This document shows, piece by piece, positions 9,019-62,117 of a stretch of 64,000 nt of DNA; the first letter of the stretch is position 1; each line of letters starts with the position of its first letter. The position numbers and the translations under genes are program-made. The notes below the pieces were generated by a model that did not search any database, was not told the origin of the DNA, and saw nothing but the letters and a program-made list of their open reading frames with translations. Source of the DNA: Pseudomonas putida (GTDB lineage: Bacteria > Pseudomonadota > Gammaproteobacteria > Pseudomonadales > Pseudomonadaceae); assembly GCA_041879295.1 (NCBI GenBank), contig CP047152.1, forward strand, positions 2,919,501 through 2,983,500, in the 5' to 3' direction.

Positions 9019-10116
9019 TCAGTCAGCTGGCAACAGCTGCAACCCCAGATACAAGCTAAGCATCCCTTCCAGGCGCAGCGGGTCGACGTCACCCAGCTCG
9101 GCTATTCGCTCCAGTCGATAGCGCAGGCTGTTGCGGTGGATGCCCAGGGCATCGGCACAGGACTGGCTTTGGCCGTCATGTGCACACCAGGCGCGCAGGG
9201 TGGTGAGTAACTGGCCACTGCTGTCCTTGGCGCGGATGCGCTGCAACGGCTCCAGCAGCTCGTCCAGCGCATCGTCGTTACGGTGGCGCCACAGCAGCGC
9301 CGGCAGCCGGTAGCGCTGCAGGCTGAGCAATCGTTCGCGGGGCAATACTTCGCGGCCATAGGCCAGCAAGTCACGCACCCGGCGGTAACCACGGCGTAAC
9401 TGCTCCAGGCTCTGCGCTTCACTGCCCAGGGCCAGTCGCTCAATGTCCCAGCCGTGGCGTTGCAGGCGTTCCAGCAGGCGCAGTTCATCCAGTGCCACGC
9501 CTGCCGGGCGGCACCACAGCAACGACTGGCGGGCCGGGCTGACGCACCAGCTATCCGGATAACGGCTCATCAACCATGCGGCCAGCGCCTCGGCAGGAGG
9601 CCCCGAAGTAATCTCGAACAGGCACGGTATCCGCGCCAGCTGAGGTTTCAAGCCCAACTGACGGGCTTCGTCCAGCAAGCGCGGGGCGTTACCGCTGCCG
9701 CCGAGCAATAGCGCCAGCAGGTCGTCACAGCGCTGCCTTCGCCATTGCTGGTCAGCCTGTAAATTGCGTTGGGCCAGCAGCATTTCGGCGGTCATGCGCA
9801 CCAGCTCGCCATAGGTGCGCACCTGCTGCGGGTCGCCGGTCAGGCCCAACACGCCCATCAGCCGCCCATCGAGCATCAATGGCAGGTTCACACCGGGCTG
9901 CACGCCCTTCAGGCACTTGGCCGCGTCGGTATCCAGCTCGACGATCCGGCCATTGGCCAAGACCAGCTGCGCCCCCTCGTGACGGGTGTTGATGCGCTCA
10001 GGCTCACCACTGCCCAGGATCAACCCTTGACTGTCCATGACATTGACGTTGCAAGGCAAGATGGCCATTGCCCGGTCAACGATATCCTGCGCCAGGTCAT
10101 GGTCGAGTTCGAACAT
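9019..10116 (-). CDS. cdaR: CdaR-type sugar diacid regulator
   Basis: A 365-residue regulator. The N-terminus, MFELDHDLAQDIVDRAM, opens the sugar-diacid recognition domain (Diacid_rec); a GGDEF-like middle segment and a PucR-type helix-turn-helix close to the C-terminus follow (DALGIHRNSLRYRLERIAEL). The start at 10116 has AAGGA upstream. CdaR proteins sense galactarate, glucarate or glycerate and activate their own gene and the catabolic genes. It lies between the glycerate kinase gene (same strand, downstream) and the divergent MFS gene, so both are likely targets. Confidence 0.93.
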   Translation of the reverse strand: MFELDHDLAQDIVDRAMAILPCNVNVMDSQGLILGSGEPERINTRHEGAQLVLANGRIVELDTDAAKCLKGVQPGVNLPLMLDGRLMGVLGLTGDPQQVRTYGELVRMTAEMLLAQRNLQADQQWRRQRCDDLLALLLGGSGNAPRLLDEARQLGLKPQLARIPCLFEITSGPPAEALAAWLMSRYPDSWCVSPARQSLLWCRPAGVALDELRLLERLQRHGWDIERLALGSEAQSLEQLRRGYRRVRDLLAYGREVLPRERLLSLQRYRLPALLWRHRNDDALDELLEPLQRIRAKDSSGQLLTTLRAWCAHDGQSQSCADALGIHRNSLRYRLERIAELGDVDPLRLEGMLSLYLGLQLLPAD

Positions 10117-10279
10117 TGCGGGGTCCTTTAGGTGTTTGGCTTTTGGGCTCGGGCACAGCAGCCTGGGCCAAGCGCTGTGCAAAAGCACAAAGACAGGCTA
10201 GCCGCAGTCCCCGAGACTCGTCAGGGCGAGCGCCGGAACAGGCGACGCGGCGAAAACCATAACAACAGAGAACCCGATC

Positions 10280-11608
10280 ATGGCACACAGCCCCGCCCCT
10301 GACCAAGGCACGGACACCACCCGCAACGCGCTGTACCGGCGCATCACCTTGCGGCTGATTCCGTTCATTTTCATCTGCTACCTGTTCAACTACCTGGACC
10401 GCGTCAACGTCGGCTTTGCCAAGCTGCAGATGCTCGACGCCCTTAAATTCAGCGAAACGGTGTACGGCCTTGGCGCCGGCATCTTCTTCATCGGCTATGT
10501 ACTGTGTGGCCTGCCAAGCAACCTGGCCCTCAATCGCTTCGGCCCACGGCGCTGGATCGCGCTAATGATGATCGCCTGGGGCAGCCTGTCCACCTGCCTG
10601 CTGTTCGTCACCACCCCTACCGAGTTCTACACCCTGCGCCTGCTCACCGGCGCTGCCGAAGCCGGCTTCTTCCCGGGTGTGGTGCTGTACCTCTCGCGCT
10701 GGTTCCCGGCGGCCCGGCGCGGCCGCATCATGGCCCTTTTCATGTCGGCGATCCCGGTATCGGGCCTGCTTGGCGGGCCGTTCTCCGGCTGGATCCTCGA
10801 ACATTTCGCCGCCGGCCAGCACGGCCTGGCCGGCTGGCAGTGGATGTTCCTGATCCAGGGCCTGCCGACCGTGGCCTTGGGCGTACTGGCGGTGTTCCTG
10901 CTCAGTGACGGCTACCAGAAAGCCGCCTGGCTGAGCCCGGCTGAACGTCAGCTGATCGCTGCCGACCTGCAGGCCGATGCTGCAAGCAAACCGAGCACCA
11001 CCAGCGACAGCGTGCTGGCCGTGTTGACCAACCCGCTGATCTGGACCTTCGGCTTTGTCTACTTCTGCATCCAGAGCGGCGTATACGCGATCAACTTCTG
11101 GCTACCCTCGATCATCAAGAGCATGGGCTTCGACAACCCGCTGCTGATCGGCTGGCTCAGCGCCATCCCGTACCTGCTGGCAGGTGTGTTCATGATTCTT
11201 TGCGGGCGCTCGGCCGACCTGCGCAACGAGCGCCGCTGGCACCTGGTGGTGCCAATGCTGATGGGCGCCGTCGGCCTGCTGATTGCGGTGAACTTCGCCG
11301 GCAACCCGAGCATTGCCATTCTTGGCTTGTCGATCGCCACCATGGGCGCGCTTACCGGTTTGCCGATGTTCTGGCCAATGCCGACTGCGCTGCTCAGTGC
11401 CGGAGCCGCCGTGGCAGGTCTGGCGATCATCAACTCGGTAGGCCAGATGGCGGGGTTTCTCAGCCCGTACCTGGTCGGGTTCATCAAGGACCAGACCGGT
11501 TCAACCGATGCCGCACTGTATTCGCTCGCGGCGTTGATCGTATTGGGTAGCCTGGTGGCCTTGCGTGTAACGCGAGCGGGTTCGCTGAGTACTGCACGGG
11601 TGAGTTGA
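10280..11608 (+). CDS. MFS transporter, anion:cation symporter type
   Basis: A 442-residue major facilitator of the ACS family (phthalate, tartrate, glucarate/galactarate carriers such as GarP/GudP). It has twelve predicted helices, an N-terminal LIPFIFICYLFNYLDRVNVG characteristic of the family, and the loop RWFPAARRGRIMALFMSAIP. It is divergent from cdaR, with 163 nt between the two starts, and is probably under its control. D-glycerate or a hexarate is the likely substrate, inferred from the kinase and regulator next door. The start is ATG in GATCATGGC. Confidence 0.9.
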   Translation: MAHSPAPDQGTDTTRNALYRRITLRLIPFIFICYLFNYLDRVNVGFAKLQMLDALKFSETVYGLGAGIFFIGYVLCGLPSNLALNRFGPRRWIALMMIAWGSLSTCLLFVTTPTEFYTLRLLTGAAEAGFFPGVVLYLSRWFPAARRGRIMALFMSAIPVSGLLGGPFSGWILEHFAAGQHGLAGWQWMFLIQGLPTVALGVLAVFLLSDGYQKAAWLSPAERQLIAADLQADAASKPSTTSDSVLAVLTNPLIWTFGFVYFCIQSGVYAINFWLPSIIKSMGFDNPLLIGWLSAIPYLLAGVFMILCGRSADLRNERRWHLVVPMLMGAVGLLIAVNFAGNPSIAILGLSIATMGALTGLPMFWPMPTALLSAGAAVAGLAIINSVGQMAGFLSPYLVGFIKDQTGSTDAALYSLAALIVLGSLVALRVTRAGSLSTARVS

Positions 11609-48428: not shown

Positions 48429-49850
48429 TCAATAAGCCTGCTTACCCGTAAAGGCATTAAGCGTGCGCACCAGAATCACAAAGTCCAGCCACAACGACCA
48501 GTTGTTGATGTACTCGATGTCCGAGTCGACCCGCTGGATCATTTGCTCGATATCCTTGGTTTCCCCCCTGAACCCGCGCACCTGCGCCAAACCTGTCATG
48601 CCTGGCTTGATATTGTGGCGGGCAAAGTAGTCAACGATATCCTGCGAATACAAGGTGTCATGTTGCAGGGCGTGTGGCCGCGGCCCTACCAGGGACATTT
48701 CACCGGTCAGCACGTTGAACAATTGTGGCAGTTCATCAAGGCTTGTACGCCGGATAAAGGCACCGACCCGGGTCAGCCGTGGGTCATTCTTCTGCGCCTG
48801 TTTGACCACGCCCTCTTCCGGTTGGTGAACATGCATACTGCGAAACTTCCAGATACGGAACGATTCGCCTGTCCAGCCGGTACGTTCCTGGCGGAAGAAC
48901 ACCGGCCCGCGGCTATCGATCTTGATGGCCAGCGCAACAGCCAGCAATACAGGTGATGCAAACAGCAAAATCAACGCGGCCAGCACCCGGTCCTCAAGGT
49001 TTTTCAAGAACAGGCTCATGCCCGTCAAGGGTGTCTCCGACAAGGTCAGCACCGGAATGCCGGCAATTTCCCGCACGCTGTGGTTGATCAGGCGCAACGA
49101 GAAGATATCCGGCACCCAGTTCACCGCAATGCACTTGTCGAGCAACTTGAAATACACGTCGTTGATGACCTCGGAGCCACCCAGTGGCGTCACCAGGTAC
49201 ACCGTACGAATGCCGTGTTGGGCCACCAGCTCGTCGAGGTCGCCAATATGCCCCAGCACTGGCAGGCGCTGCTTGCCCTCGGCACTCTCCAACCCCTGCC
49301 CATCGCCTTTGTCGAGCAGCACGCAGCCCAGCACCCGCTCGCCAAACCATGGGTTGTTGCTGATTTTCTGATACAGGAAATTGGCCAGGTCACCGTTGCC
49401 GATGATCAGGGCATTGTCCAGGCGCGCATGCGCGCTAAAGCGTTTTTGCAGTTCGCGCACGGCAAAATGCAAGAATAACTGGGCGACATAACCAATGACG
49501 AACAGTTGCACCACCAATAGCCGTGAATAGGTTTCGCTCTGTTTGGTCAGGAACGCCATGACCACCAGGAAGCAAAATGTTGCCGACCAGGCCTTGAACA
49601 GGCGGAACGCCTTGATCGACAACCCGACGTTGGTGCGGTAGATCGCGTAATGATCATAAATGACTGCCAGTGCACCAATCAGCAACAGCAGCATGATCAC
49701 GTAATCGGATGTGATGTAGCCGAACTGGTCGTAGATCAGGTACCAGGCAATACCGGTGACGGCAATACCATCGAGGCCGGCCTGGATGGCGTTACTGACA
49801 CTGCTTCTTCTCTGGAGTAAGGAACGACTGCTTCTGGGTTCGAAAACCAT
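48429..49850 (-). CDS. Undecaprenyl-phosphate sugar phosphotransferase (WcaJ-type)
   Basis: A 473-residue initiating enzyme that links the first sugar phosphate (glucose or galactose type) to undecaprenyl phosphate. The N-terminal half has four membrane helices and a CoA-binding-like domain ([14 protein letters not shown]). The C-terminal catalytic domain is preceded by a membrane helix and has [32 protein letters not shown] and SLVGPRPHA. The start at 49850 has GAGGT 7 nt upstream. It is the last gene of the minus-strand EPS series, separated from the GT26 gene by 177 nt, so it may have its own promoter. Confidence 0.94.
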
Positions 49851-50027
49851 TTCAGACCTCATCAAGATGAGCGTAGCAAGTGCCTTCCATCAAACAGCGA
49901 GCCTTGAAAACAGACTTAAGCAAAAACCGTGCAGCAGGCGCGTGGCGCCCTCAAGCGATTGATATCACTGTAGCAGCCACCCGCTGCTGGCGTACCCGGA
50001 ATCACCGCTTTTGCAATTTTTGGCCGT

Positions 50028-50780
50028 TCATAGGGCCCGCCTGGCCGAAACCGCTGACCGCCGGTACAGCAGGGTGCGCAACAGGAATAGCGGATTGCCC
50101 ACCACATAACGCATGAACAGGCGCTTGGGCTCGCGCAGCAGGCGGTACAGCCATTCGCCCCCCAAACGCCGCAGCCATTCGGGGGCACGGCTGACCTTGC
50201 CGCCGAGAAAGTCCAGGATCGCCCCTCCGCACACGATCAGGCATGGCACGCCAATGGCTGCCAATTTTGCCGCCACCGCTTCCTGCTTGGGCATGCCCAT
50301 GCCCAGTACAATCAGCTCGGGTTGCTCCCTGCGGGCCAATTGTAAGTAGGTTTCTACGCTGGCAAAGCCATCGTGAACGGACACTGGCACAATGCCGAAC
50401 TCGGCTTTACAGCGCTGCGCGGCCTGGTCCAGGTAGGGTTGCCGGGTGCCCCAGAAGGCGACTTTACGCCCTCGGTAAGTAGCCATGAGCCTGGGAATGA
50501 AGTCAGTGCCATTCATGTTGAGCCCGGGTTCCAGGCCCAGACCGCGATACAGGATCGCCATGCCGGCACCATCGCGCAGCAGCACATCTGCGGCCGACAG
50601 TGCCTGGCAGTAGCCACCATCGCGCACCACCAGGTTCATGGCATGGGCATTGACGAAGCCCAGCACGGTGCCCGTATCCGGTGTAGCCAGGCGATCGAGC
50701 AGGTGCTGCACTGCGGCGGCGTCAGCGATCACTTCCATCTGGTCGATCACGCGCTTCCAGCGATTCTGCCACTGAGCCAT
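50028..50780 (-). CDS. WecB/TagA/CpsF glycosyltransferase (GT26)
   Basis: A 250-residue GT26 transferase, typically adding N-acetylmannosamine(-uronate) or glucose as the second sugar on the lipid carrier. VNAHAMNLVVRDGGYCQAL and LLRDGAGMAI carry the conserved Asp motif, and VVLGMGMPKQE appears as IVLGMGMPKQEAVAAKL. The C-terminal basic/amphipathic tail (LYRLLREPKRLFMRYVVGN) is the membrane-docking segment. Its start overlaps the preceding gene's stop in TGATG. Confidence 0.93.
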   Translation of the reverse strand: MAQWQNRWKRVIDQMEVIADAAAVQHLLDRLATPDTGTVLGFVNAHAMNLVVRDGGYCQALSAADVLLRDGAGMAILYRGLGLEPGLNMNGTDFIPRLMATYRGRKVAFWGTRQPYLDQAAQRCKAEFGIVPVSVHDGFASVETYLQLARREQPELIVLGMGMPKQEAVAAKLAAIGVPCLIVCGGAILDFLGGKVSRAPEWLRRLGGEWLYRLLREPKRLFMRYVVGNPLFLLRTLLYRRSAVSARRAL

Positions 50781-51967
50781 CAGTCGTCATCCCGTTTTGA
50801 ACGCACCCATTCAACCTGGCGCTTGATCAGGAAGCTCAGGTACAAGGGAATCTTCCTGGCCGCGTAAAACGGCGCGTACAGCAACACCGAGAACGGTATC
50901 ACTTCACGACAGAAGCGCGCCCAGGCCAACACCACGGCAAAGGCCAGCAAGGCCAAACCGGTAAAGGCGAGCCGCGCGGGCACCGCCAGGCCGAACAGCA
51001 GGTACGCCAGCCAGGTCACCAGATTAAGCCCGAGCAAGGCCAGCACCAGCAACGCCAGGGGTGGCACCAGCAAGTCCAGGGTCAAGGCCGCCAGGCTAGC
51101 ATTGCGCTGGGTGATTGCAGCCATCGCCCGTTTGGGTGCATCGGCGAGCATCAAGCCCAGATGGCCATGCTCCCAGCGGGTGCGCTGGCTGTTGAGGCCC
51201 TGCTCGCTGAGCGGGAACTGGCTAGTGACAAGTGCCTCGGGGCAGAAAGCAGGAGGCTTACCCTGCTGGCAAAGGTCCAAGCCCAGCTTCACATCCTCGA
51301 CCAGATGACCATTGGCCAGGTTGATCAGGCTCAGATCGTTCCAAGCGAACGCCATGCCCGCGCCCATCAGCTGGCATGGCAGGCCCAAGCGCGCCCAACC
51401 GCGCGGCCGCACCAGGTTCTTGACCCGCCAGGCAAACTCGGCAACCTGCACCTTCAACCCGGCACCTGCAGGTGCACGCATCAGGTACAGCGACTGTACC
51501 GGGCGGGCAAGTTCGTGGCAGCGGCGCGCCAGGCAGTCAATCGCCCCTTCGCCTACCTGACAGTCGGCATCCACCACAATTACAACCTCGGGCGGTCGTT
51601 GAGCCAGGTGGCGCACGCCGAAGTCCAATGCATACCCTTTGCCGCGCAACCGCGTATCGTGGCGCTCTACCACTTCGGCACCAGCCTCGTGTGCCAACTG
51701 GGCCGTGTCGTCAGAGCAGTTGTCCGCCACTACCAGCAAGCGATCGCCGTCCAGCAGTTGCGGCGTAACGCTGGCCAGCATCGCACGAATGACCAACGCC
51801 TCATCGTGGGCGGGCACCAACACCGCCACTCGCGGGCGCTCACCAATGCCGTTGGGCCTCGCCCGCGCTGGCAGGCACGCCAACAACACTTGCAGCACCA
51901 GGACCAACACCGGTACCAGGACGATGATCGCCAACAGGCCCAGTAACCAACCCAATACACTTATCAT
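50780..51967 (-). CDS. Membrane glycosyltransferase family 2
   Basis: A 395-residue processive-type GT2 enzyme. One N-terminal helix (LLGLLAIIVLVPVLVLVLQV) precedes the catalytic domain, with VLVPAHDEALVIR, VADNCSDDT, the DxD-like VVDADCQVG and the acceptor motif QRTRWEHGHLG (Q-x-x-R-W); three to four helices follow. The pattern resembles cellulose-synthase-like transferases, but it is short. It overlaps the upstream GT4 stop by ATGA, so the two are co-translated. Confidence 0.92.
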   Translation of the reverse strand: MISVLGWLLGLLAIIVLVPVLVLVLQVLLACLPARARPNGIGERPRVAVLVPAHDEALVIRAMLASVTPQLLDGDRLLVVADNCSDDTAQLAHEAGAEVVERHDTRLRGKGYALDFGVRHLAQRPPEVVIVVDADCQVGEGAIDCLARRCHELARPVQSLYLMRAPAGAGLKVQVAEFAWRVKNLVRPRGWARLGLPCQLMGAGMAFAWNDLSLINLANGHLVEDVKLGLDLCQQGKPPAFCPEALVTSQFPLSEQGLNSQRTRWEHGHLGLMLADAPKRAMAAITQRNASLAALTLDLLVPPLALLVLALLGLNLVTWLAYLLFGLAVPARLAFTGLALLAFAVVLAWARFCREVIPFSVLLYAPFYAARKIPLYLSFLIKRQVEWVRSKRDDD

Positions 51968-53166
51968 GCGTATGCCTTGAAATAGCCGGCCAGCCTGGCC
52001 GCCTCGGTGTCGATGTCATGCCGTTGCACTACACGCTGGTAGGCCACCTCGCCCATGTGCTGCAGTGCCTCGGTCGGTTGCGCCAGGCAGTCGGCCATGG
52101 CTGTTGCCAGCTCGTCAACGGCACCGGCAGGGAACAGCCAGCCGTTCTCGCCAGGCCGCACCAGCTCGGGGATACCCGCTACATAGGTGGTCAGCACTGG
52201 CCTGCGCAAGGCCATGGCCTCCATGATGACCACTGGCAAGCCCTCGGCAAAACTGGGTAGCACCAGCGCGCGGGCGGCCAGAATTTCCTTGCGTACCTGC
52301 GCACTGCTGATCCAGCCGGTGATATGCACTTGCTGCTGCAAGCCGTGCCGGGCAATCAAGGCCTCGATTTGCTCGCGCATTTCACCGTCACCCGCCAGCA
52401 CCAGCTCGAAGGCGATCGATTGGGCAGCGAGACAGCGCGCCGCTTCCAGCAACAGCAGCTGGCCCTTCTGCTCGCACAGGCGCCCGACACACACCAGCCG
52501 TGGCGCCGGCGGCACATTGACCGGCGCCACCTCATGAAACCCACGCTCCAGGCCACAATGCACCACCTTCACCTTGCCCCAGTGCTCGTGCGCCACCCAA
52601 CGGTACAGCTGGCTGCGCCCGTACGAGCTCACCGCCGCGACAAAGGCGGCGCGCCGCACCTTCTCACCCAGATGCAGAAACTGTGGTTTGTCGAATTCTT
52701 CGGGGCCGTGCACGGTAAAGCTGTATGCCGGCCCGCCCAGGACGTTGGCCAGCATGACCACCTCAGTAGAGTTGGTGCCGAAATGCGCGTGCACATGGGT
52801 CGCATCCCCTGCCAGCAACCACTGCAGCACTTGGCAGGCCTCGGCCAGGTAGACCAGATGATAGGGCCAGGCACGGTCGGCCCGCAGACCAAGGCGCATG
52901 GCCAGCCACAGCGCCTGGAAAAACCGCCGCGGCTGCGTACGCAGTACCTGCCACGTCGGTGCGAATAGCCCCTTGAGCCCACCTTGCAATACGTAGCGGG
53001 TCTTGCCCCGTTCGGTTGCGTCCTCGGCATCCTGCACCTCGGCGTCCCACCCACGCAGGGCTATACGTTGTACCTCAACCCCCTGACGCTCCAGCGCCAG
53101 AATTTCGCGACGGATGAAACTGTGGCTGACTTTCGGGTACTGATTGATGAAGTAAGCAATGCGCAT
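51964..53166 (-). CDS. Glycosyltransferase family 4
   Basis: A 400-residue GT-B enzyme beginning MRIAYFINQYPKVSHSFIRR, an opening seen in colanic-acid-type transferases. HVHAHFGTNSTE lies in the N-terminal acceptor domain; the donor domain has LVCVGRLCEQKGQLLLLEA and the E-x7-E motif in EGLPVVIMEAMALRRPV. The start at 53166 was preferred over an upstream frame extension because it begins at the conserved residues. It is 49 nt behind the VirK-like gene. Confidence 0.93.
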   Translation of the reverse strand: MRIAYFINQYPKVSHSFIRREILALERQGVEVQRIALRGWDAEVQDAEDATERGKTRYVLQGGLKGLFAPTWQVLRTQPRRFFQALWLAMRLGLRADRAWPYHLVYLAEACQVLQWLLAGDATHVHAHFGTNSTEVVMLANVLGGPAYSFTVHGPEEFDKPQFLHLGEKVRRAAFVAAVSSYGRSQLYRWVAHEHWGKVKVVHCGLERGFHEVAPVNVPPAPRLVCVGRLCEQKGQLLLLEAARCLAAQSIAFELVLAGDGEMREQIEALIARHGLQQQVHITGWISSAQVRKEILAARALVLPSFAEGLPVVIMEAMALRRPVLTTYVAGIPELVRPGENGWLFPAGAVDELATAMADCLAQPTEALQHMGEVAYQRVVQRHDIDTEAARLAGYFKAYA

Positions 53167-53215
53167 ACGAATCCAGATCCAAACCCGCTTGATGACCAAC
53201 CTTCCCTGGCAACCT

Positions 53216-54220
53216 TCACTTCAGGCTGTCGACTACGGGCGGTCCGTCTACTGCCGATGCACTCACAGCAAATGCATCCCCCTGTTTTCCTTGTAGTCCA
53301 AGGTTGTGATTGCTGCTTGGCAATGCTGCCTGCAAACGGGTGAAAACATCGTCAAGCAATGCCTGGCGGCGGCGGTACATCGCCCGTTTTTTGGCCGGGA
53401 TGTCGGCTTCCGCCCGTTGTGCCGGCGCTAACGGGAGGGTAAAAAAATCCTCACGGTCAGACGCTATGGCGCCGTGTTCTTGCCAGATAACGTCGTAGTT
53501 GGCCGCCAGGTCCTGGCCCTTGTCGTTGCCAAAATAGGGATGGCGATGGTGCCGGCAGGCGTCGCTGACGGCATACAGTTGCGTTACACCCAGGGTTCTG
53601 CCCAGGCATTTCAACGCTTCGAGCAACAGGCTGCGTGGCCGCAGCCCTTCGAAGTCCTTGGTCAGGTCACGGTAGATGGCCAGCGAGGTTTCGCTGTCGA
53701 TACCTTTGTGGATGCCCTGCACCGCACCGATGAACAGGCAGGTCTCACCCTGGCTGCGGCCCAGGGTGAAGGCCAGGGATGCCACACGCAGGTCGGCCTG
53801 GAACAGGTTCAACACCAGCTCGCCTTCGCGCTTGAACCAGATTGGCCGATCCAGAACCAGGCAGCAGCCCGGCGAATGGCTGGACAGGTCACACAGCCTC
53901 AGGTTTTCGTCGCGTCCCAGCAGCAGCAACGCCGGGAACTGCCCAGCCACCCGTTCAAAGTGTGAAGCCACCACATCCAGACGCTGTGGCGCCTCCCAGC
54001 ATCGGCTGATGTAAGGCCATTGCACGACACCGATACAATCCACACCCAGCCGCTGCAAACCATGCGGGCCCAGCGCCGCCGTCATGCGCTGCATGAACCC
54101 GTTCAGCTCAGGCCACTGCCTGGCGATCTGCCGTGCCAACTTGTACTTGTTGTGCAACGCCCGCAACGAGTAACCCGGTTGCAAGGTAAACACGCTTTTC
54201 ACGAGGGTGCCGAGCATCAT
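53216..54220 (-). CDS. VirK/YbjX family protein (DUF535)
   Basis: A 334-residue member of DUF535, known from Shigella VirK and Salmonella YbjX/SomA, where it affects envelope properties and peptide resistance. Recognisable parts are LRALHNKYKLARQI at the N-terminus, DLSSHSPGC, LFIGAVQGIHKG and VSDACRHHRHPYFG, the last being the family's best-kept block. No catalytic function is established. It is embedded between EPS transferase genes, 9 nt after a GT2 gene, so a role in EPS assembly or acyl transfer is a reasonable guess. Confidence 0.9.
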   Translation of the reverse strand: MMLGTLVKSVFTLQPGYSLRALHNKYKLARQIARQWPELNGFMQRMTAALGPHGLQRLGVDCIGVVQWPYISRCWEAPQRLDVVASHFERVAGQFPALLLLGRDENLRLCDLSSHSPGCCLVLDRPIWFKREGELVLNLFQADLRVASLAFTLGRSQGETCLFIGAVQGIHKGIDSETSLAIYRDLTKDFEGLRPRSLLLEALKCLGRTLGVTQLYAVSDACRHHRHPYFGNDKGQDLAANYDVIWQEHGAIASDREDFFTLPLAPAQRAEADIPAKKRAMYRRRQALLDDVFTRLQAALPSSNHNLGLQGKQGDAFAVSASAVDGPPVVDSLK

Positions 54221-54229
54221 GGGTTTCTC

Positions 54230-55207
54230 TCACTTATACTCGATCAAAGCCGATTTGCCAGCCGCAAGGCGGTGGCGCAGGAACTTCAGCTGGCCGAGCA
54301 TTTCCGGGAATTTGCCCAACACAAGAAACACAGCCTGCAGCCAGTTCTCGCGCGTCGACTTGCTGCCGCGGCGAGCCAGGCGCAAGGCCTGCAATGGGTA
54401 GATCAACAGCAAGAGCAAGCCCCAGCCGCCCAGCAGCAGGCAGGCCAGCGCGATCACCAAGGGTATGCCCAGGCCCCACAACCAGGCCCGACGTGACTCA
54501 CGCAGCCAATGCCGCTCGGGTGGCTGGCCATGCAGGTAGGCGCCCTCGGCATAGGCATGCCCAGCGCGCAGGCTACGCCGCCACCATTGGCTGAAACGGG
54601 TCATGCCGGCATCGTGCAGGGTCATCTCGGCAGCCAGTCGCCAGACTTTCCAGCCGTTGGCCCGTAAACGCACGCACAGTTCGGGCTCTTCTCCGGCTAT
54701 CAGGTCAGGGCGGAAGCCACCCACAGCAGCAAAGGCGTCTGCCCGCATCAGTGCATCGCCGCCACAGGCCTTGGCCTCACCGACCGGGGTATCCCACTCC
54801 AGGTCGCACAGCAAGTTGTACACCGAACGCTGCGGGAAGCGCTCACGCCGGCGACCACACACCACTGCCACGGCGGGGTGCTGCTCAAGAAAAGCCTGCG
54901 CAGTTGCCAGCCAGGTGGCATTCACCTCGCAGTCGCCATCGACGAACTGTACCAGTTGCATCGATGGCAACAGGCGCTGCAAGGCGGCAAAACCTTCATT
55001 GCGGGCGCGTGCGGCAGTGAACGGGATACCCATGTCCAGCGCCAGCACGTCCACGCCAAGGTTGGCGGCCAACTGCAGCGAACCATCGGTGGAACCCGAG
55101 TCGACGTACATGACTTTGTCCGCCCCGTGCGCCAGCGAACAAAGGCAGCGCTCGAGACGCTGGCCTTCATTGCGGCCGATCACCACCACGCCGATCACCG
55201 TTGCCAT
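54230..55207 (-). CDS. Glycosyltransferase family 2
   Basis: A 325-residue GT-A transferase. It has VVVIGRNEGQRLERCLCSL, VDSGSTDGS and the DxD-equivalent QFVDGDCEV; ACGGDALMRADAF and GEEPELCVRLRANGW follow, and two C-terminal helices lie near residues 240-275. The start is ambiguous. GTG at 55216 overlaps the preceding stop codon as GTGA, while the ATG at 55207 has GAGG just upstream and was chosen. The sugar is unknown. Confidence 0.91.
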   Translation of the reverse strand: MATVIGVVVIGRNEGQRLERCLCSLAHGADKVMYVDSGSTDGSLQLAANLGVDVLALDMGIPFTAARARNEGFAALQRLLPSMQLVQFVDGDCEVNATWLATAQAFLEQHPAVAVVCGRRRERFPQRSVYNLLCDLEWDTPVGEAKACGGDALMRADAFAAVGGFRPDLIAGEEPELCVRLRANGWKVWRLAAEMTLHDAGMTRFSQWWRRSLRAGHAYAEGAYLHGQPPERHWLRESRRAWLWGLGIPLVIALACLLLGGWGLLLLLIYPLQALRLARRGSKSTRENWLQAVFLVLGKFPEMLGQLKFLRHRLAAGKSALIEYK

Positions 55208-55212
55208 AGGCC

Positions 55213-55737
55213 TCACTCGACCGATGCCGTGGCGGCCGCTTGCCGGGCCTTGATGATGGCCGGCACCCCCACTGCCAGTGAGTTGTCAGGTACATCTACC
55301 AGCACGACGGCATTGGCGCCGATGATCACGTTGTTGCCGATGCGAATACTGCCCAGCACCTTGGCCCCGGTGCCGATGTCGACGTTATTGCCGAACACCG
55401 GGGCAATCGGCTCGTCGACATTCTTCAGGCCCACCACCACGCCGTTGCGGATACGGCAGTCATCGCCGAAGCGGGCATAACCGCTGACAACAATGCCGCC
55501 GAAATGATCGATGACGAAGTTGCGCCCGATCACCACCTCGCAAGGCAGTTCGATACCGGTGATGATCTGGACGAATTTGAACAGCACCTTGTAGATGAGC
55601 GAACACAGTTTGCGCAACAGTGCCGGGCGCAACGTATAACGCCAGCGGCCAAAGCGGTACACCAGCAATACCCAGAAGCCCTGGGCGCCCCAGTCCCCGC
55701 CATGGGCCCTCAGGTCGGCGCGAATATTCTCGAACAT
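55213..55737 (-). CDS. Serine acetyltransferase-like hexapeptide acyltransferase
   Basis: A 174-residue left-handed beta-helix enzyme similar to CysE-type transferases in EPS clusters. MFENIRADLRAHGG is the typical opening, and the repeats include CEVVIGRNFVIDHFGG (with the catalytic His), VFGNNVDIGTGAKVLG and IGNNVIIGANAVV. In such clusters these proteins acetylate a sugar. The start at 55737 has GGTGGAG in front. It is 8 nt behind a GT2 gene. Confidence 0.92.
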   Translation of the reverse strand: MFENIRADLRAHGGDWGAQGFWVLLVYRFGRWRYTLRPALLRKLCSLIYKVLFKFVQIITGIELPCEVVIGRNFVIDHFGGIVVSGYARFGDDCRIRNGVVVGLKNVDEPIAPVFGNNVDIGTGAKVLGSIRIGNNVIIGANAVVLVDVPDNSLAVGVPAIIKARQAAATASVE

Positions 55738-55745
55738 GGCTCCAC

Positions 55746-56702
55746 CTACCTTGTTGGTTGGCTGGCGTACCGGGTCTTGAACAGCAATGACCAGGTTGCC
55801 CGGCAATGACGCCAGCAGGCCTGAATGGCGCCCCAGCCGCGTCGTTTCAACAGCGCCTTGAGTGCCAGCACCAGGTCGCCCAGCGTGACCAGCAGCATGT
55901 GCAGGGCCAGCCCCGTCACGCCATGATGCTTGCGGAAGTACAGCAACTCGCTTTCGATCTGGTAGGACGAGATCTGCCGGCTGGCAGCCTCCAGTTCCGC
56001 CACCGACTTGGAGCTTTCGCCACCGATATGCACCACCGTGGTATGCGGGTAAAACACCACTTTCCAGCCCGCTTCCTTCACCCGCTTGCAGTGGTCCACC
56101 TCTTCGTAATAAAGGAAGTAGCGCGGGTCGAACAACCCCACCTTGTCGAGCACTTCGCGGCGCACCAGGTAGAAGCAGCCAGGCAACCAGTCACACTCGC
56201 GCACCGAGGCGTGGTCCCAGTTCATTTCGTCGACCATCTTCAGCCCTGGGAAGAACCGCCCCAGCCCGGTACGCCCGACGAACACATTGAGCGGCGTGGG
56301 GAAGTAGCGGCAACTGGGCTGCAGGTCACCATCGCGCCCCTCCAGGCGCACCCCCAGTACGCCGCACTCTGGGTGGGCCTCCATGTAGTCGAGTGTTTTT
56401 TGCAGAGAGTCGGCGGCAACGAAGGCATCGGTATTGAGTAGCAAGGCGTACTTGCCCTTGAGGTGCGCCAACAACTGGTTGTTGGCCCGGCCGAAACCCA
56501 CGTTCTGCTTGTTGCTCAGCAGCAGTGCCTCGGGGCACACCTGGGCCATGCGCTGCACCGAGTCATCGCGCGAGGCATTGTCCACCACCAGGTAACTGGC
56601 CAGCCGCTCGCTGTCGGCCCGGCGCAGTGCATCGAACATTGGCTGCAGCAGTCCAGCGGTATTGAAGTTCACCACCATGACATCCACAGGTTTGCTAGCC
56701 AT
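55746..56702 (-). CDS. Glycosyltransferase family 2, rhamnosyltransferase-like
   Basis: A 318-residue WbbL-type GT2 enzyme. VMVVNFNTAGLLQPMFDAL opens the donor domain, VDNASRDDSV and LLLNTDAFVA give the acidic metal site, and GCFYLVRREVLDKVGLFD and YEEVDHCKRVKEAGWKV lie in the acceptor side. The amphipathic C-terminus probably docks to the membrane. A rhamnose donor is common in this group but unproven. It begins 1 nt after the acyltransferase stop codon. Confidence 0.93.
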   Translation of the reverse strand: MASKPVDVMVVNFNTAGLLQPMFDALRRADSERLASYLVVDNASRDDSVQRMAQVCPEALLLSNKQNVGFGRANNQLLAHLKGKYALLLNTDAFVAADSLQKTLDYMEAHPECGVLGVRLEGRDGDLQPSCRYFPTPLNVFVGRTGLGRFFPGLKMVDEMNWDHASVRECDWLPGCFYLVRREVLDKVGLFDPRYFLYYEEVDHCKRVKEAGWKVVFYPHTTVVHIGGESSKSVAELEAASRQISSYQIESELLYFRKHHGVTGLALHMLLVTLGDLVLALKALLKRRGWGAIQACWRHCRATWSLLFKTRYASQPTR

Positions 56703-56703
56703 T

Positions 56704-57312
56704 TTAGCTGTCCCCGAAGAAATACTGGCGTCTTTGCGCCATCAACAGCGGTTCAACTTCCGGGTCGTAGGCCCCGTTGCGCTGTTTCACCAGGTCGATC
56801 CAAGGGTAAGCTTCGCAACGTGCCTCGACCCGTTGGATCAACTGCTCGGTGGTACAGATGAACACGGCCGGGTTGCCACCATAGACGGTGCCTGGCGGCA
56901 CGTCCTTGGTCACCACCGCCCCTGCGGCCACGATGGATTCAGGCCCGATGGTCACGCGAGGCATCACGATCGCACCATGGCCGATGAAGCAGTTGTCCTT
57001 GATGTCGATGAAACCGACCGAATCCAGGTGCTTGCCATAGCGATGCTCGATCAGCAATACCACCCCGTCATGACCGATCAACGTGCAGTCGGACAAGCCC
57101 ACGCTGTTGCCGATACGTACCAGCGACGGGTCGAGAAACTTGCAGCCTGTATTGACGTAGAAATTGCTGCCGACCGAGTGAAAGTTGCCCCATCGGGCCA
57201 GATAGGCCCCCCATTCAAGACCAGAGGGGTTGCAGAACCTCCTGTAGAATTTGCCCCCTCGCCCGGTTGCATGGGCGTAGTGCGCCACTGCCTTGCGTAT
57301 CCATCCCTTCAT
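56704..57312 (-). CDS. Hexapeptide acyltransferase (WcaF/LbH type)
   Basis: A 202-residue acyltransferase with left-handed beta-helix repeats: NTGCKFLDPSLVRIGNSVGL, IKDNCFIGHGAIVMPRVTIG and PESIVAAGAVVTKDVPPGTV. The last is the signature of CoA-dependent O-acetyltransferases such as WcaB/WcaF and NodL. It would decorate the EPS repeat. The start at 57312 (MKGWIRKAV) was chosen over a longer frame that runs through the intergenic gap. It is 103 nt after the GMC gene. Confidence 0.91.
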   Translation of the reverse strand: MKGWIRKAVAHYAHATGRGGKFYRRFCNPSGLEWGAYLARWGNFHSVGSNFYVNTGCKFLDPSLVRIGNSVGLSDCTLIGHDGVVLLIEHRYGKHLDSVGFIDIKDNCFIGHGAIVMPRVTIGPESIVAAGAVVTKDVPPGTVYGGNPAVFICTTEQLIQRVEARCEAYPWIDLVKQRNGAYDPEVEPLLMAQRRQYFFGDS

Positions 57313-57415
57313 ACTGCCTGGCCTCGCGATCTGAACAATCTGGAGTGTCCTGAGGCGTTCCGGTCTCGTTCTTCTAGGTGCTGACCGCATCGCTCTCACC
57401 CGTGTACAACCTGCA

Positions 57416-58882
57416 TCACGCTGCGGCGCTGCTGGCCGCTTTCATCTTGTTATCGAGGTGGTCGGCCAGCCGCAAGGCAAACTGCAACAGCGGCATGGTC
57501 GGGTTGGAGGCGCCGCCCTTGGCAAAAATGCTGCTGCCGGCGACATACAGGTTTTCGGTACCGAACACCTTGCAATTGGCATCGACTACACCGAACTGCG
57601 GCGAGGCGGCCATACGCGTGGTACCCATGTGATGGGCATGGGGTGCCATTTTCAGCGGAATCGAGGTGTCGTAGACGAAATCGTTGAGCTTGACGAACCC
57701 CAGCCCCATGTCAGCGAACTGCTTGGCCAGTTCGCTGCCAATGCACTTGATGGTGTGCCGGTCATCGGCACTAAGCACCCAATTGACATTGACCTTGGCC
57801 ACGCCCAATGCATCCTTCTCGTCCAGCAGCGAAATGCGGCTGTGCAGGTTGGGGAACTGCTCGATCATGGTGCTGAGCACGCCGTCACCGGGGCAGCTGA
57901 ACTTGGCAACGAAGGCGACCTTGCTGGCAAACCCCATGTCGCAGGCCAGGCTCTCGAGAAAATACTTGACCTCGGCAGTGCGGCCGTAGGTTTGCACATC
58001 GGCCAGTAAAACAGCGGTGACATTGCCTTTACCGGCCTTGTACTCGTCGATGAAAGCATCGGTGGTGTAGTACTGGCGCGGCTCCGGGTCCTGCCCGGAC
58101 TTGAGGATGAAAGTGCCCATTTCGATGTTCAGGTGCTCCATGAACCCCCCGCCCACCAGCCCTTCCTTGCTCACCACACCTGCGGCCACCAGGGACTCGC
58201 TGTTCAGCAACTGCCGGGCATTCTCGATGGCACCCGTGGCCAGAATGAAGTTGCTTGCTACCAGGCGCTGACGATTGCGTTGATAGTCGGACAACACCAC
58301 CGCAGCCAGGTGGCCGGAAGCCTTGTCGAACTCCAGGTCAACGCAATTACAGTGGATGAATACGTCCAGGCCTGGGGTCTGCTCCAGTGCTGTTGCGTAC
58401 TTTTGTGCAAAGCGTGTCGGCGTGCTGAGCAGAAAGCGGTCCGCCTCGAAGTCACCACCATCGAGACTGGTATTCATCGCGCGAAAATCCGCGCCAGGCG
58501 CCAGATCGACAATCTCCATCGCTGCCGGTAGAAAGCCTTCGATCTCCGAATAGGGAATGGGCCAACCCGGCAAGTCGCCTTGCGGGGCGACGGCAAAATC
58601 CGAAGGAGTGAATGGCCGGCACCGGCCAGCCCAGTGATTGGAGGTGCCCCCCAGGTAACGCAGGCGGGATTCCTCGGCATACAGCTCCAGGCCGGTGGAT
58701 GAGCACGCGTACAAGTCTTGCGAGTACGACGCATATTCGCGCCCCCCACCTTCGGCGATCATTACGCTCCAGCCGGCAGCAGCCAGGCGCAAGCCCAAGG
58801 TTATACCCGCCGGGCCGGCGCCGATGATGCAGAAATCGTAGTGGTCGCGCAGCGCCTTCTGCTGCTGAAAGTCCTTGATCAT
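57416..58882 (-). CDS. GMC-family FAD oxidoreductase
   Basis: A 488-residue flavoprotein of the glucose-methanol-choline family, in the subgroup of membrane-linked sugar/alcohol dehydrogenases (gluconate and fructose dehydrogenase large subunits). The FAD motif is FCIIGAGPAGITLGLRLA (18-35), with LGGTSNHWAGRCRPF, ATGAIENARQLL and the C-terminal catalytic region HAHHMGTTRM then GASNPTMPLLQFALRLAD. It has no signal peptide of its own. Its ATG overlaps the stop codon of the small Tat-signal gene (ATGA). Its presence between acyltransferase and flippase genes suggests oxidation of an EPS sugar. Confidence 0.92.
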   Translation of the reverse strand: MIKDFQQQKALRDHYDFCIIGAGPAGITLGLRLAAAGWSVMIAEGGGREYASYSQDLYACSSTGLELYAEESRLRYLGGTSNHWAGRCRPFTPSDFAVAPQGDLPGWPIPYSEIEGFLPAAMEIVDLAPGADFRAMNTSLDGGDFEADRFLLSTPTRFAQKYATALEQTPGLDVFIHCNCVDLEFDKASGHLAAVVLSDYQRNRQRLVASNFILATGAIENARQLLNSESLVAAGVVSKEGLVGGGFMEHLNIEMGTFILKSGQDPEPRQYYTTDAFIDEYKAGKGNVTAVLLADVQTYGRTAEVKYFLESLACDMGFASKVAFVAKFSCPGDGVLSTMIEQFPNLHSRISLLDEKDALGVAKVNVNWVLSADDRHTIKCIGSELAKQFADMGLGFVKLNDFVYDTSIPLKMAPHAHHMGTTRMAASPQFGVVDANCKVFGTENLYVAGSSIFAKGGASNPTMPLLQFALRLADHLDNKMKAASSAAA

Positions 58883-59073
58883 GCTGACGCGTTCCGGAAG
58901 TAACGGGACGGCAATACCCAACCATTGATTATCACGAACCCGGGCTTTTCGGCCGTCTTGCCAGCAACGGCCGCCGAGGCGCCGAATACCGCGCCCCCCA
59001 CGCCGAGCAAGACACAGCTCTGGAGAAAACCTCTACGACCCAACTGCGCAGTACAAAAAGTGAGCTTCTCCAT
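58879..59073 (-). CDS. Small Tat-signal protein paired with the GMC oxidoreductase
   Basis: A 64-residue protein made almost wholly of a twin-arginine signal: QLGRRGFLQS at residues 10-19, a hydrophobic stretch with many Gly/Ala, and an Ala-x-Ala-like end near ASAAVAGK. Only about 25 mature residues follow (GFVIINGWVLPS region). The ATG at 59073 fits; an ATG at 59094 adds seven residues and is also possible. Its stop codon overlaps the GMC start, so production is coupled. Small Tat subunits of gluconate/sorbitol dehydrogenases carry their large subunit across the membrane, and the same role is inferred here. It is much shorter than those partners. Confidence 0.75.
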   Translation of the reverse strand: MEKLTFCTAQLGRRGFLQSCVLLGVGGAVFGASAAVAGKTAEKPGFVIINGWVLPSRYFRNASA

Positions 59074-59118
59074 GATCCCGTGACCTGTAGCCATGAAAGT
59101 TACACCTGGCAAACTGCG

Positions 59119-60495
59119 TTACAGCCAGTTGAAGAAGGCCGTCAGCAGTGCCCCGCACAGCGCCCCGACCAGCAACATCGGCAGTACCACCAGCTCACGT
59201 TTGAGGCTGAAGATATCCAGTTTGCAGTTCACGTACACAACCAGCACCAGCGTTGGCACAGCATGCAGGGCAACCCCCCAGATAGCCCACTCCACCCCGC
59301 CAATCGCCAGCAGCAGCGGCAACAGTCCCCACAACGAGACCAGGCGGATGATGTTGTCCATGGCCTGGTACTTGGTCAGGCCCAAGGCAATCCACACCTG
59401 ATGAGCCAAGGTATAGCGCAATACGATGAACGATAGCGAGAGAATCGCCAGCATCGGCCCTGCTTCGCGGTAGCGATCGTCATACATCCAGCCAATCAGC
59501 AATGGGCTGGCGGTCAGGAACCCGCCACAAATGAACAGAACCAGCAGGTCGACCAGCAGCCGAAAGCGGAAATACAACGCTTTCAGGCGCTGCTTGTCGT
59601 CGGCCCGGGCCGCTTCACTGAAGGCAGGCAATGCCACCGCGCCGACAATTTTCATGAGCGCGGTCTGCACCGCACCCAGGATCAGCACGGCGATCGAATA
59701 CACACCCAGTTGCGCCGCCGACATGCTGGCGCCAAACCACATACGGTCGCCGTACATCGCCAGCACACCAACCATCGACGACAGCAGGATCCAGCGGCCA
59801 AACACAATCAGCTCGGTCAGCGCCGAACGGTCCCAGCGCAGGTGGTTGGTGGGCCCCTGCAGGGCGGTATGCCCCAGCACTGTCCAGACCACCGCCGAAA
59901 CCAGGCCTGATAACACTAGCGCCCAGATCGAATGGGTCAGCAAGCCCAGCACCAGCATCACCACCAGGCCGGCCACCTGCGAGGCAAGGTCGACCAGCAC
60001 CACGCGCTTTTGTTGGAAAGTTCGTACCGCCACATCTATCTTGGTGGACTGGAACCCCCAGATGGCCGCAGACAGGCCGGTCACCGCCAGCACCATCGGC
60101 AGTATGGGTGCGGCATAGGTTGAGTCTGCCGGCCACAGCTCGGCCAGTTGCGCCAACCAAGCCCCCAGGGCCAGCAGCAGAGTAAGCGCAAACAGCAGGA
60201 AACCGCGGATGATCTGCACGGTCCAGGCGGTATTGAGAAAGTCCGGATCGTCACCACGGTGGCTCTGGATGATGTTCTGGCGCAGGCCGACATCGGAAAG
60301 CAAATGCAGCAGTATCGAAACAGTGGTGGCAATGACCATCACCCCGAACATTTCCGGCAGCAGCAAGCGGGCCATGATCAGATTGCCGCCCAGGCGCATC
60401 ACCTGTGAAGCCACCTGCGAGACCAGGTTCCACGACCCGGCTCTCAGGGCCCGCTTGCGCAGGCTCGCGGCGGCTGACACATCAATCGACGGCAT
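59119..60495 (-). CDS. Wzx-like polysaccharide flippase
   Basis: A 458-residue inner-membrane protein of the MOP/polysaccharide-biosynthesis superfamily, with about twelve to fourteen helices. The opening RAGSWNLVSQVASQVMRLGG and LARLLLPEMFGVMVIATT are typical of Wzx/WzxC-type exporters. It flips lipid-linked EPS repeats to the periplasm. It is the first gene of the minus-strand EPS series; the divergent polymerase gene starts 96 nt away. Confidence 0.92.
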   Translation of the reverse strand: MPSIDVSAAASLRKRALRAGSWNLVSQVASQVMRLGGNLIMARLLLPEMFGVMVIATTVSILLHLLSDVGLRQNIIQSHRGDDPDFLNTAWTVQIIRGFLLFALTLLLALGAWLAQLAELWPADSTYAAPILPMVLAVTGLSAAIWGFQSTKIDVAVRTFQQKRVVLVDLASQVAGLVVMLVLGLLTHSIWALVLSGLVSAVVWTVLGHTALQGPTNHLRWDRSALTELIVFGRWILLSSMVGVLAMYGDRMWFGASMSAAQLGVYSIAVLILGAVQTALMKIVGAVALPAFSEAARADDKQRLKALYFRFRLLVDLLVLFICGGFLTASPLLIGWMYDDRYREAGPMLAILSLSFIVLRYTLAHQVWIALGLTKYQAMDNIIRLVSLWGLLPLLLAIGGVEWAIWGVALHAVPTLVLVVYVNCKLDIFSLKRELVVLPMLLVGALCGALLTAFFNWL

Positions 60496-60515
60496 GACTT
60501 CAATCTCTGACTGAT

Positions 60516-60547
60516 TGGCTAAAAGTCACTATAGTTTCAATTAGCCA
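60516..60547. promoter_or_regulatory. Divergent EPS promoter region with inverted repeat
   Basis: TGGCTAA (60516-60522) and TTAGCCA (60541-60547) flank 18 nt that include CTATAGT, a -10-like sequence. The repeat lies between the divergent flippase and polymerase genes and could bind one regulator controlling both. Confidence 0.5.
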
Positions 60548-60590
60548 CGATGCTAGCCGTTGCCCACCGAAGGAAAGGTGTACATAGCCG

Positions 60591-62117
60591 ATGCCTGAAC
60601 ATTTTCGAGCGTTGATCGTCATCCTGTTTTTGGCGAGCGTGGTCTTCGTGATGGCGCGGCGGCCTGCCACCGACCTGATTCCGCTCAGCGACTACAAGCG
60701 CCGGCGTAATCTGTGGTTCCTGCTGACCCTGCTGGCTTTTCTCTCGCACAGCTTCTGGCTGTATCTGGGTGTGGGTGCGGTCGTCCTTTTGCTGGCCGGG
60801 CGCCGCGAGCACAACCCCATGGCGCTGTTCTACATGCTGCTGTTCCTGATCCCGCCAGCGTCGGTCCAGGTGCCCGGGTTTGGCGTGGTCAATTACCTGG
60901 TCGACCTGAACCATATTCGCCTGCTGAGCCTGTGCGTGCTGTTGCCGGCTGCGCTGCACCTGCGCCGGCAAGGTGACACCCTTCGCTTTGGCCGCACCTG
61001 GGCCGATAAGTTGCTGGCCGCCGGCCTGCTGCTGCTGAGCGTGCTCTATTTGCGCGAAACCACCCCTACCGACACGCTGCGCCAGGCGCTGTACCTGTAT
61101 GTCGACGTACTCCTGCCGTACTACGTGGCCAGCCGTGGCCTGCGTCAGATCAGCGACTTCAAGGACACCCTGCTGGCCTTCGTTCTTGTCTCTTTCGTCA
61201 TGGCGCTGATCGCTGTGGCCGAGTATGTACGCCACTGGCTGCTATACAGCGCCCTGGTCGACGCCATGGGCGTGCCATGGAGCATGTCCGGCTACCTGAG
61301 CCGCGGTGGTGCGCTGCGGGCGAGCGTCACCACCGGCCAGGCGATTGTGCTGGGTTACGTGATGAGCGTGGCCATCGGCCTGTTCCTGTTCGTGCAAGGC
61401 TATGTGCAACGCCCGCTGCACAGGGCCATGGGCGCCCTGCTGCTGGCCGCCGGGCTGTTCGCGCCATTGTCACGCGGCCCGTGGATCGGCGCCGTGGTCA
61501 TCGTGGTGGTGTTCATTGCCCTGGGCAAAGGCGCCGTCAAGCGCCTGGCACTGCTGGGGGCGGCTGGCATGCTGGCGTTGCCCTTGCTGACCGTCGTGCC
61601 TGGTGGCGACAAGGTGCTGGACCTGCTGCCGTTCATCGGCAACCTCGAGAAAGAGAACATCACCTACCGCGAGCGGCTGATGGACAATTCCTGGATCGTC
61701 ATCCAGCGCAACCCATTGTTCGGTTCTTTCGACTTCCGCAACACACCCGAAATGCAGTCGATGATCCAGGGCGAAGGCATCATCGACATCGTCAACACCT
61801 ACATCAACCTGGCGCTGCGGGCCGGCCTGGTCGGGCTAGGCCTGTTCGTGGCGTTCTTTGCCGTGGTGGTGGTGGGTATCCGCAGGGCCATGCTCAGTTT
61901 TGCCGACAAGGATGATGAGCGACGACAGCTCGGCCGGGTGTTGCTGGCAACGCTGATCGGCATTCTGGTCATCATCTTCACAGTCAGCAGCATCACCTTC
62001 ATCCCGGTGGTGTACTGGTCTATCGCAGGTCTGGGCGTGGCCTACATCCAGATGGTTCGCCGGCTGCACAACAGCCAGGTGATGGAACTGGCAGAACCCG
62101 ACCTACAACCCAGGTAA
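60591..62117 (+). CDS. O-antigen ligase/Wzy-type EPS polymerase
   Basis: A 508-residue membrane protein with ten or more helices and a periplasmic loop in the second half, as in Wzy/WaaL proteins. APLSRGPWIGAVVIVVVFIA (about residues 290-310) is the conserved RGPW-type region, and ERLMDNSWIVIQRNPLFGSF matches the family's loop. It would join flipped repeats into the polymer. GAAGGAAAGG stands before the ATG. It is followed after 5 nt by the glycoside hydrolase gene. Confidence 0.92.
   Translation: MPEHFRALIVILFLASVVFVMARRPATDLIPLSDYKRRRNLWFLLTLLAFLSHSFWLYLGVGAVVLLLAGRREHNPMALFYMLLFLIPPASVQVPGFGVVNYLVDLNHIRLLSLCVLLPAALHLRRQGDTLRFGRTWADKLLAAGLLLLSVLYLRETTPTDTLRQALYLYVDVLLPYYVASRGLRQISDFKDTLLAFVLVSFVMALIAVAEYVRHWLLYSALVDAMGVPWSMSGYLSRGGALRASVTTGQAIVLGYVMSVAIGLFLFVQGYVQRPLHRAMGALLLAAGLFAPLSRGPWIGAVVIVVVFIALGKGAVKRLALLGAAGMLALPLLTVVPGGDKVLDLLPFIGNLEKENITYRERLMDNSWIVIQRNPLFGSFDFRNTPEMQSMIQGEGIIDIVNTYINLALRAGLVGLGLFVAFFAVVVVGIRRAMLSFADKDDERRQLGRVLLATLIGILVIIFTVSSITFIPVVYWSIAGLGVAYIQMVRRLHNSQVMELAEPDLQPR

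Follow-up and report, generated by a model that had tools for sequence, protein, structure and literature searches.

The window analysed here is a 64,000-nucleotide stretch of the Pseudomonas putida genome (assembly GCA_041879295.1, contig CP047152.1, positions 2,919,501 to 2,983,500). Our subject is a pair of overlapping genes within it, one encoding a micro-subunit that is mostly a putative twin-arginine translocation (Tat) signal and the other a GMC-family flavoprotein oxidoreductase; their coordinates and those of the surrounding features are collected in Table 1. An earlier note on this DNA had described a twin-arginine open reading frame (ORF) of 64 residues overlapping, through an ATGA, the start of a GMC gene that lacks any signal, and this is borne out by translation and by conservation in 32 genomes. 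Of the 32 Pseudomonas genomes read directly, 31 retain the overlap and G193 has a 2-base gap instead; six additional rows are second copies from genomes that the count already includes. Because separate ORFs are kept in all 32 genomes read, a sequencing error or a single split gene is ruled out. Among the loci read there was no naturally fused micro-GMC protein, and one candidate fusion, P0089 (520 residues), was rejected, its extra length being C-terminal.

Table 1. Positions of the gene pair, its sequence features and the neighbouring genes in the window.
Feature	Position	Strand	Basis
Micro-subunit gene (P0002), 64 aa	58879..59073	-	Translation; co-occurrence; selection
GMC oxidoreductase (P0001), 488 aa, without signal peptide	57416..58882	-	Translation; Pfam; alignment
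ATGA shared by the micro stop and the GMC start, 4 bases	58879..58882	-	Sequence reading
Putative twin-arginine signal region, micro residues 1-37	58963..59073	-	Cleavage after AVA placed by eye, no predictor
Twin arginine, Arg13-Arg14	59032..59037	-	Invariant in aligned rows
FVIINGWVLP, micro residues 46-55, conserved putative docking tail (NG turn, then Trp52)	58909..58938	-	Alignments; selection
His83 of GGTSNHW in P0001, aligned with His105 (covalent FAD) of B. cepacia GDH	58634..58636	-	Alignment
pea flippase	59119..60495	-	Pfam Polysacc_synt_3; same-cluster test
Hexapeptide acyltransferase	56704..57399	-	Domain scan; missing together with micro and GMC genes in G079
Rest of pea-type cluster	48429..56702	-	Domain scans; order as in KT2440 pea
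Wzy-like polymerase/ligase, divergent from cluster	60591..62117	+	Pfam Wzy_C

The micro protein consists of GRRGFLQ, a hydrophobic stretch, AVA and then about 27 residues that include GFVIINGWVLPSRYFR. Arg13, Arg14 and Trp52 are invariant across 34 micro proteins of our own choosing. No Pfam family matched the protein at E ≤ 0.01, and the only NCBIfam matches were to sub-threshold Tat models, TIGR01409 (TAT_signal_seq, E 0.08) and TIGR02811 (formate_TAT, E 0.051). When a profile of the family was run on the window's own genome, which has two TatC genes, it gave 11 further weak places (E 0.005 to 0.76); the four best, the only ones inspected, are the signal regions of formate dehydrogenase, PvdP and two CopA proteins, and counterparts of PvdP and CopA are included in a P. 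aeruginosa Tat list (PMC6085387). Selection was assessed in 23 equal-length micro sequences of the 30 read (seven of unequal length were left out; 253 pairs), from the residue preceding the twin arginine through the C-terminal end. The mean proportions of synonymous (pS) and nonsynonymous (pN) differences were 0.595 and 0.247, respectively, and over the ten codons of FVIINGWVLP pN fell to 0.064 with pS unchanged. Purifying selection acts on the micro protein, most strongly on its tail.

The GMC protein P0001 matches Pfam GMC_oxred_C (E 4.7e-19), and its N-terminus sits almost on the Rossmann GxGxxG motif with no signal seen; a TTG at 58921, taken as the start instead, would lengthen the protein by 12 residues without supplying a signal. 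Most of the 120 relatives listed are 487-488 residues long. His83 aligns with His105 of the B. cepacia glucose dehydrogenase (GDH), which is covalently bonded to flavin adenine dinucleotide (FAD) according to a passage of PMC6719666, and a His/Asn catalytic pair, the His of HHMG and Asn460 of NPT, appears by alignment to be present. Neither of the 3Fe-4S cysteine patterns sought, CC-x4-C-x3-C and C-x5-C-x3-C, occurs in P0001 or in 64 GMC rows; the alignment to GDH leaves out GDH residues 150-242, which contain Cys212-222. An assignment of P0001 as a pyranose 2-oxidase was rejected, its 54.5 bits against TIGR02462 lying far under the cut-off of 544.9. In an AlphaFold model of a relative, the best structural matches are the large subunits of fructose dehydrogenase (FDH, 7w2j) and FAD-glucose dehydrogenase (FAD-GDH, 6a2u). 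When a relative was modelled with the intervening stop read through, the tail, but not the signal, was predicted to be ordered, its equivalent residues forming two strands.

The two enzymes matched, gamma-alpha of B. cepacia FAD-GDH and the Gluconobacter FDH, join a GMC large subunit to a small hitchhiker subunit, as is proposed for the window pair, the GDH small subunit being a known hitchhiker, and the aligned covalent-FAD histidine is a further likeness. They differ from the window pair in that the partner here has 64 residues, whereas the GDH gamma subunit is a protein of five helices, and in that the window GMC has no 3Fe-4S cysteine pattern and its cluster no cytochrome c gene. In gluconate 2-dehydrogenase, which we take to be encoded by genes of the PA2264-2266 type, a small Tat subunit also stands beside a GMC flavoprotein. 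The signal of PA2264 is among the entries of the P. aeruginosa Tat list, where that protein is given as 26.4 kDa (PMC6085387), in contrast to the window's micro-subunit with its lack of a Pfam family. Bacterial pyranose 2-oxidase and C-glycoside oxidase carry the signal on the enzyme itself, unlike the window GMC.

Co-occurrence in Pseudomonas and the pea locus

The pair lies between flippase and acyltransferase genes, as the earlier note had correctly reported, in a cluster of the pea type. We searched a genus sample of 199 genomes with cut-offs of E ≤ 0.01 for the micro-subunit, E ≤ 1e-100 for the GMC and E ≤ 1e-80 for the flippase. The micro-subunit was matched in 35 genomes and the GMC in 33, all of them within the 35. 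The two micro-only matches are weak, one having two internal stops (G021, E 7e-4) and the other being partial (G119, E 0.007), and no GMC was matched at its cut-off in either genome. Adjacency of the two genes was read directly in 32 genomes and taken from coordinates in the 33rd (G159). The pea flippase was found in 34 genomes, namely these 33 and G079. It adjoins the pair in 28 of the 33; in the other five (G015, G045, G065, G072 and G077) it lies elsewhere and the remaining cluster surrounds the pair, with no DUF535 match in G015 and no hexapeptide match in G072. The pea locus of G079 contains the flippase, the polymerase and glycosyltransferases, and the micro, GMC and hexapeptide genes are jointly absent from it; a WcaJ-like gene was not seen within the stretch fetched. 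At this cassette-free site (L171, 9004-9129) the matches to the flippase and to a family 2 glycosyltransferase (GT2) are about 125 bases apart. A different arrangement is seen in G107 (L174, 7876-13601), where two flippase copies flank the pair and an extra glycosyltransferase-like ORF, which suggests a duplicated or inserted segment. Two flippase matches were also found in G156 and G159.

Read from the flippase (60495 down to 48429), the order in the window is flippase, micro-subunit, GMC, hexapeptide transferase, GT2, a Ser O-acetyltransferase-like hexapeptide protein, GT2, DUF535/VirK, GT4, GT2, a WecG/TagA glycosyltransferase and a WcaJ-like sugar transferase. The table of the P. putida KT2440 pea operon (PP_3132-3142), in the passage available, runs from a polysaccharide transporter through PP_3133 ('Oxidoreductase, putative'), a conserved domain protein, a glycosyltransferase, a Ser O-acetyltransferase, GT2, VirK and GT1 to GT2 (PMC4287175). 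The window shares this gene order and these annotations, in a comparison made by table and not by sequence alignment. The earlier note knew of no exopolysaccharide (EPS) system with an oxidation step of this kind; because the gene order of the window is that of KT2440 pea, the system is already described, with an oxidoreductase in its table. The micro gene does not appear in that table passage, and its presence in KT2440 is to be expected from the relatives. PP_3133 is named in a table row (PMC4287175) and as a deletion end point (PMC13104614), and a passage of PMC6120874 counts Pea among 'two less characterized polysaccharides'. Among open-licence PMC papers we found none on the micro family or on the function of PP_3133. 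The note's further suggestion, that electrons are fed to the respiratory chain, gains no support: the window's GMC has no 3Fe-4S cysteine pattern, and a Pfam scan of the other 11 protein genes at 48429-62117 gave no cytochrome domain (the rest of the genome was not searched).

Relatives and their surroundings in other bacteria

In 398 genomes of the phylum, the GMC profile (E ≤ 1e-60) found eight further genomes with nine GMC places, eight of which have a small upstream ORF ending in NGW/AGW[VIL]L. A narrow micro profile run on 299 phylum genomes returned only its own genome and two weak matches (E 3.8e-4 and 6.6e-4); the distant micro proteins escaped it and were recognised only in the DNA upstream of distant GMC genes. 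We read by eye the loci from a scan of named GTDB genomes, in which the best 80 of 587 GMC relatives fall into 79 loci (29 with Mesorhizobium in the title). A small partner lies directly upstream in 77 of the 79, and most of these partners have both a twin-arginine signal and a tail with W-[VIL]-L. An automatic search gave 75, but what it matched in L130 and L139 was something other than the partner, hence the count by eye; the two exceptions are L130, where the partner precedes the first GMC copy, and L147, which has none. An automatic version of the pattern picked out 68 of the 79 GMC genes, against 19 of the 472 further genes in these loci. The window's genome has five more GMC genes, and at the start tried the pattern matched none of them. 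The same tail recurs in different phyla, also at loci where the micro and GMC genes are free of overlap. The pairing of micro-subunit and GMC is thus broader than first noted, the family being found in many other bacteria. Variant tails, IYRNGVI and IYRDGWIV, stand upstream of the GMC in L129 and L158, and two GMC copies accompany one visible micro gene in L130 (5760-8842) and L081 (6612-13682).

Seven loci (L154, L159-L163 and L165) have longer partners, with GW[VIL]L near the C-terminus and 120-137 residues where the start is clear, in records of Bacteroidota, Gemmatimonadota, Thioploca and Acidiferrobacteraceae. Six of the seven were scanned and gave only chance-level Pfam and NCBIfam matches. 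The GMCs of these seven loci form one group in our tree (SH-aLRT 100), and the Pea GMCs group with L143, L146-L148, L150 and L151 (91) and, within the tree, with L146 and L148 (82); the tree was made by a quick method, has open forks, long outgroup branches and an unsettled root, and does not give the direction in which partner size changed.

The surroundings of these pairs are varied. Those of Mesorhizobium and Halomonas/Vreelandella sit among unrelated genes, and one (L131) has a GMP-synthase neighbour. At least two relatives of pea proteins were found in 4 of 87 loci and at least one in 12 of 87, in a test of low sensitivity on loci that include near-duplicates. Polysaccharide-type neighbours occur at L148 (UDP-sugar dehydrogenase, epimerase, aminotransferase and sulfotransferase genes), L121 (adjoining an acyltransferase and an epimerase), L125 (adjoining GT87) and L138 (near glycosyltransferases and a flippase), and the two GMC copies of L081 lie in a putative nucleotide-sugar/acyltransferase locus, as read from sequence with no profile search. 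In L148, a Nitrospirae-titled polysaccharide-type locus, an arylsulfotransferase-like gene adjoins the pair (9500-11128). The pair is not intrinsically tied to polysaccharide genes. The co-occurrence with GMC genes in EPS loci that the earlier note proposed to check was found in 33 Pseudomonas genomes; in other bacteria the pair is often outside polysaccharide loci.

A candidate export mechanism and its alternatives

We consider it probable that the pair forms a two-subunit flavin oxidoreductase in which the micro-subunit is a near-minimal Tat hitchhiker, composed of a signal and a docking hairpin, with Pea as the likely substrate. The GMC subunit would fold around FAD in the cytoplasm, and the C-terminal tail of the micro-subunit, a putative short hairpin (a strand, an NG/DG turn and a W[VIL]L strand), would dock on it. 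The twin-arginine signal of the micro-subunit would then carry the folded pair through Tat and so bring the signal-less GMC into the periplasm, and after cleavage the second subunit would consist of only about 27 micro residues. Once exported, the Pseudomonas enzyme would most likely act on the Pea repeat unit or polymer by oxidising one of its hydroxyls, on the membrane face that also holds the flippase product; EPS oxidation in the pea operon is a reasonable proposal. A Tat-type small partner far shorter than the known ones had been suggested by the earlier note, and the co-occurrence in 33 of 33 genomes, the invariance of the twin arginine and Trp, the two TatC genes and the structural match to FDH and FAD-GDH all favour it. 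More tentatively, and with a good deal less confidence, these proteins may represent a widespread and undescribed class of minimal Tat hitchhikers, a signal plus a Trp hairpin of about ten residues, which would serve a large FDH-like GMC clade without the Fe-S cluster or a cytochrome partner and, in Pea, install an oxidised (keto or carboxyl) sugar after flipping.

Several observations weigh against this interpretation. The Tat domain models scored under their cut-offs (13.3 versus 16.7 bits and 13.9 versus 48.45 bits), and an obvious cleavage site is missing from some micro proteins (SAR11-type rows). Partners are not uniformly present or complete: L068, the ninth of the GMC places found in the phylum, lacks one directly upstream, and its tandem neighbour L076 has one; no partner is visible for the GMC of L147; only the tail part is visible in L120, L140 and L164; and L129 lacks the tail Trp. 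Of the 64 GMC rows, 56 carry NHW, the simple pattern for the FAD-linking His. Tail order was predicted in a construct that joins the two proteins of a relative covalently by read-through, and the GMC of that relative is 36% identical to that of the window. The AlphaFold model of the window's own GMC (12 close rows), with a pLDDT of 45, was too poor to rely on. Open-licence PMC papers yielded no experiment on a member of the family.

The alternative that survives best, although we think it somewhat unlikely, is compatible with the export part of our proposal: the micro-subunit would export the GMC, but the substrate would be a free periplasmic sugar or alcohol, the pea operon serving for expression only. 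Free sugars are the substrates of FDH and GDH, relatives occur outside polysaccharide loci (Mesorhizobium, Halomonas and L131) and one pea locus, that of G079, does without the cassette. However, all 33 Pseudomonas copies are in pea context, by flippase adjacency in 28 and by the rest of the cluster in five; the cassette is lost jointly with the acyltransferase in G079; and polysaccharide-type neighbours appear again in the five loci named above. A smaller chance is given to the micro-subunit being a membrane tether, an uncleaved N-terminal anchor whose tail would hold the GMC at the periplasmic face after Tat export, or at the cytoplasmic face, and pass electrons to quinone. The micro proteins without an obvious AxA site by eye (L076 and the SAR11-type rows) would suit such an anchor, and direct quinone contact is attractive in a cluster without a cytochrome partner; yet many Pseudomonas rows do have AVA/ANA-type sites, and a plain anchor would not need the twin arginine that is invariant in 34 aligned rows. 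It is very improbable that the ORF is a leader that sets GMC translation by coupling and has no protein function: the frequent ATGA overlap would fit, but the protein is under purifying selection with a near-frozen tail, which recurs across phyla also in the absence of gene overlap. Equally improbable is a peptide substrate oxidised by the GMC, resembling the ribosomally synthesized and post-translationally modified peptides (RiPPs) of mycofactocin-type clusters, as a small peptide with a conserved C-terminal Trp beside a GMC, and a weak MftG-type match (45.9 of 387 bits), might suggest, since a twin-arginine signal with a hydrophobic segment is atypical of a RiPP leader, no maturase or protease domain was found among the scanned cluster proteins, and some partners are longer.

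If our proposal that the micro-subunit carries the GMC through Tat is true, it would describe a very small natural co-export adaptor, in effect a portable Tat tag acting in trans. It would explain how a large group of signal-less GMC enzymes, including some in Pelagibacteraceae-titled records, could gain access to the periplasm, and would correct the natural reading of such enzymes as cytoplasmic. In Pseudomonas, a chemical step in Pea would become directly testable, with the cassette-free pea locus of G079 as a natural comparison.
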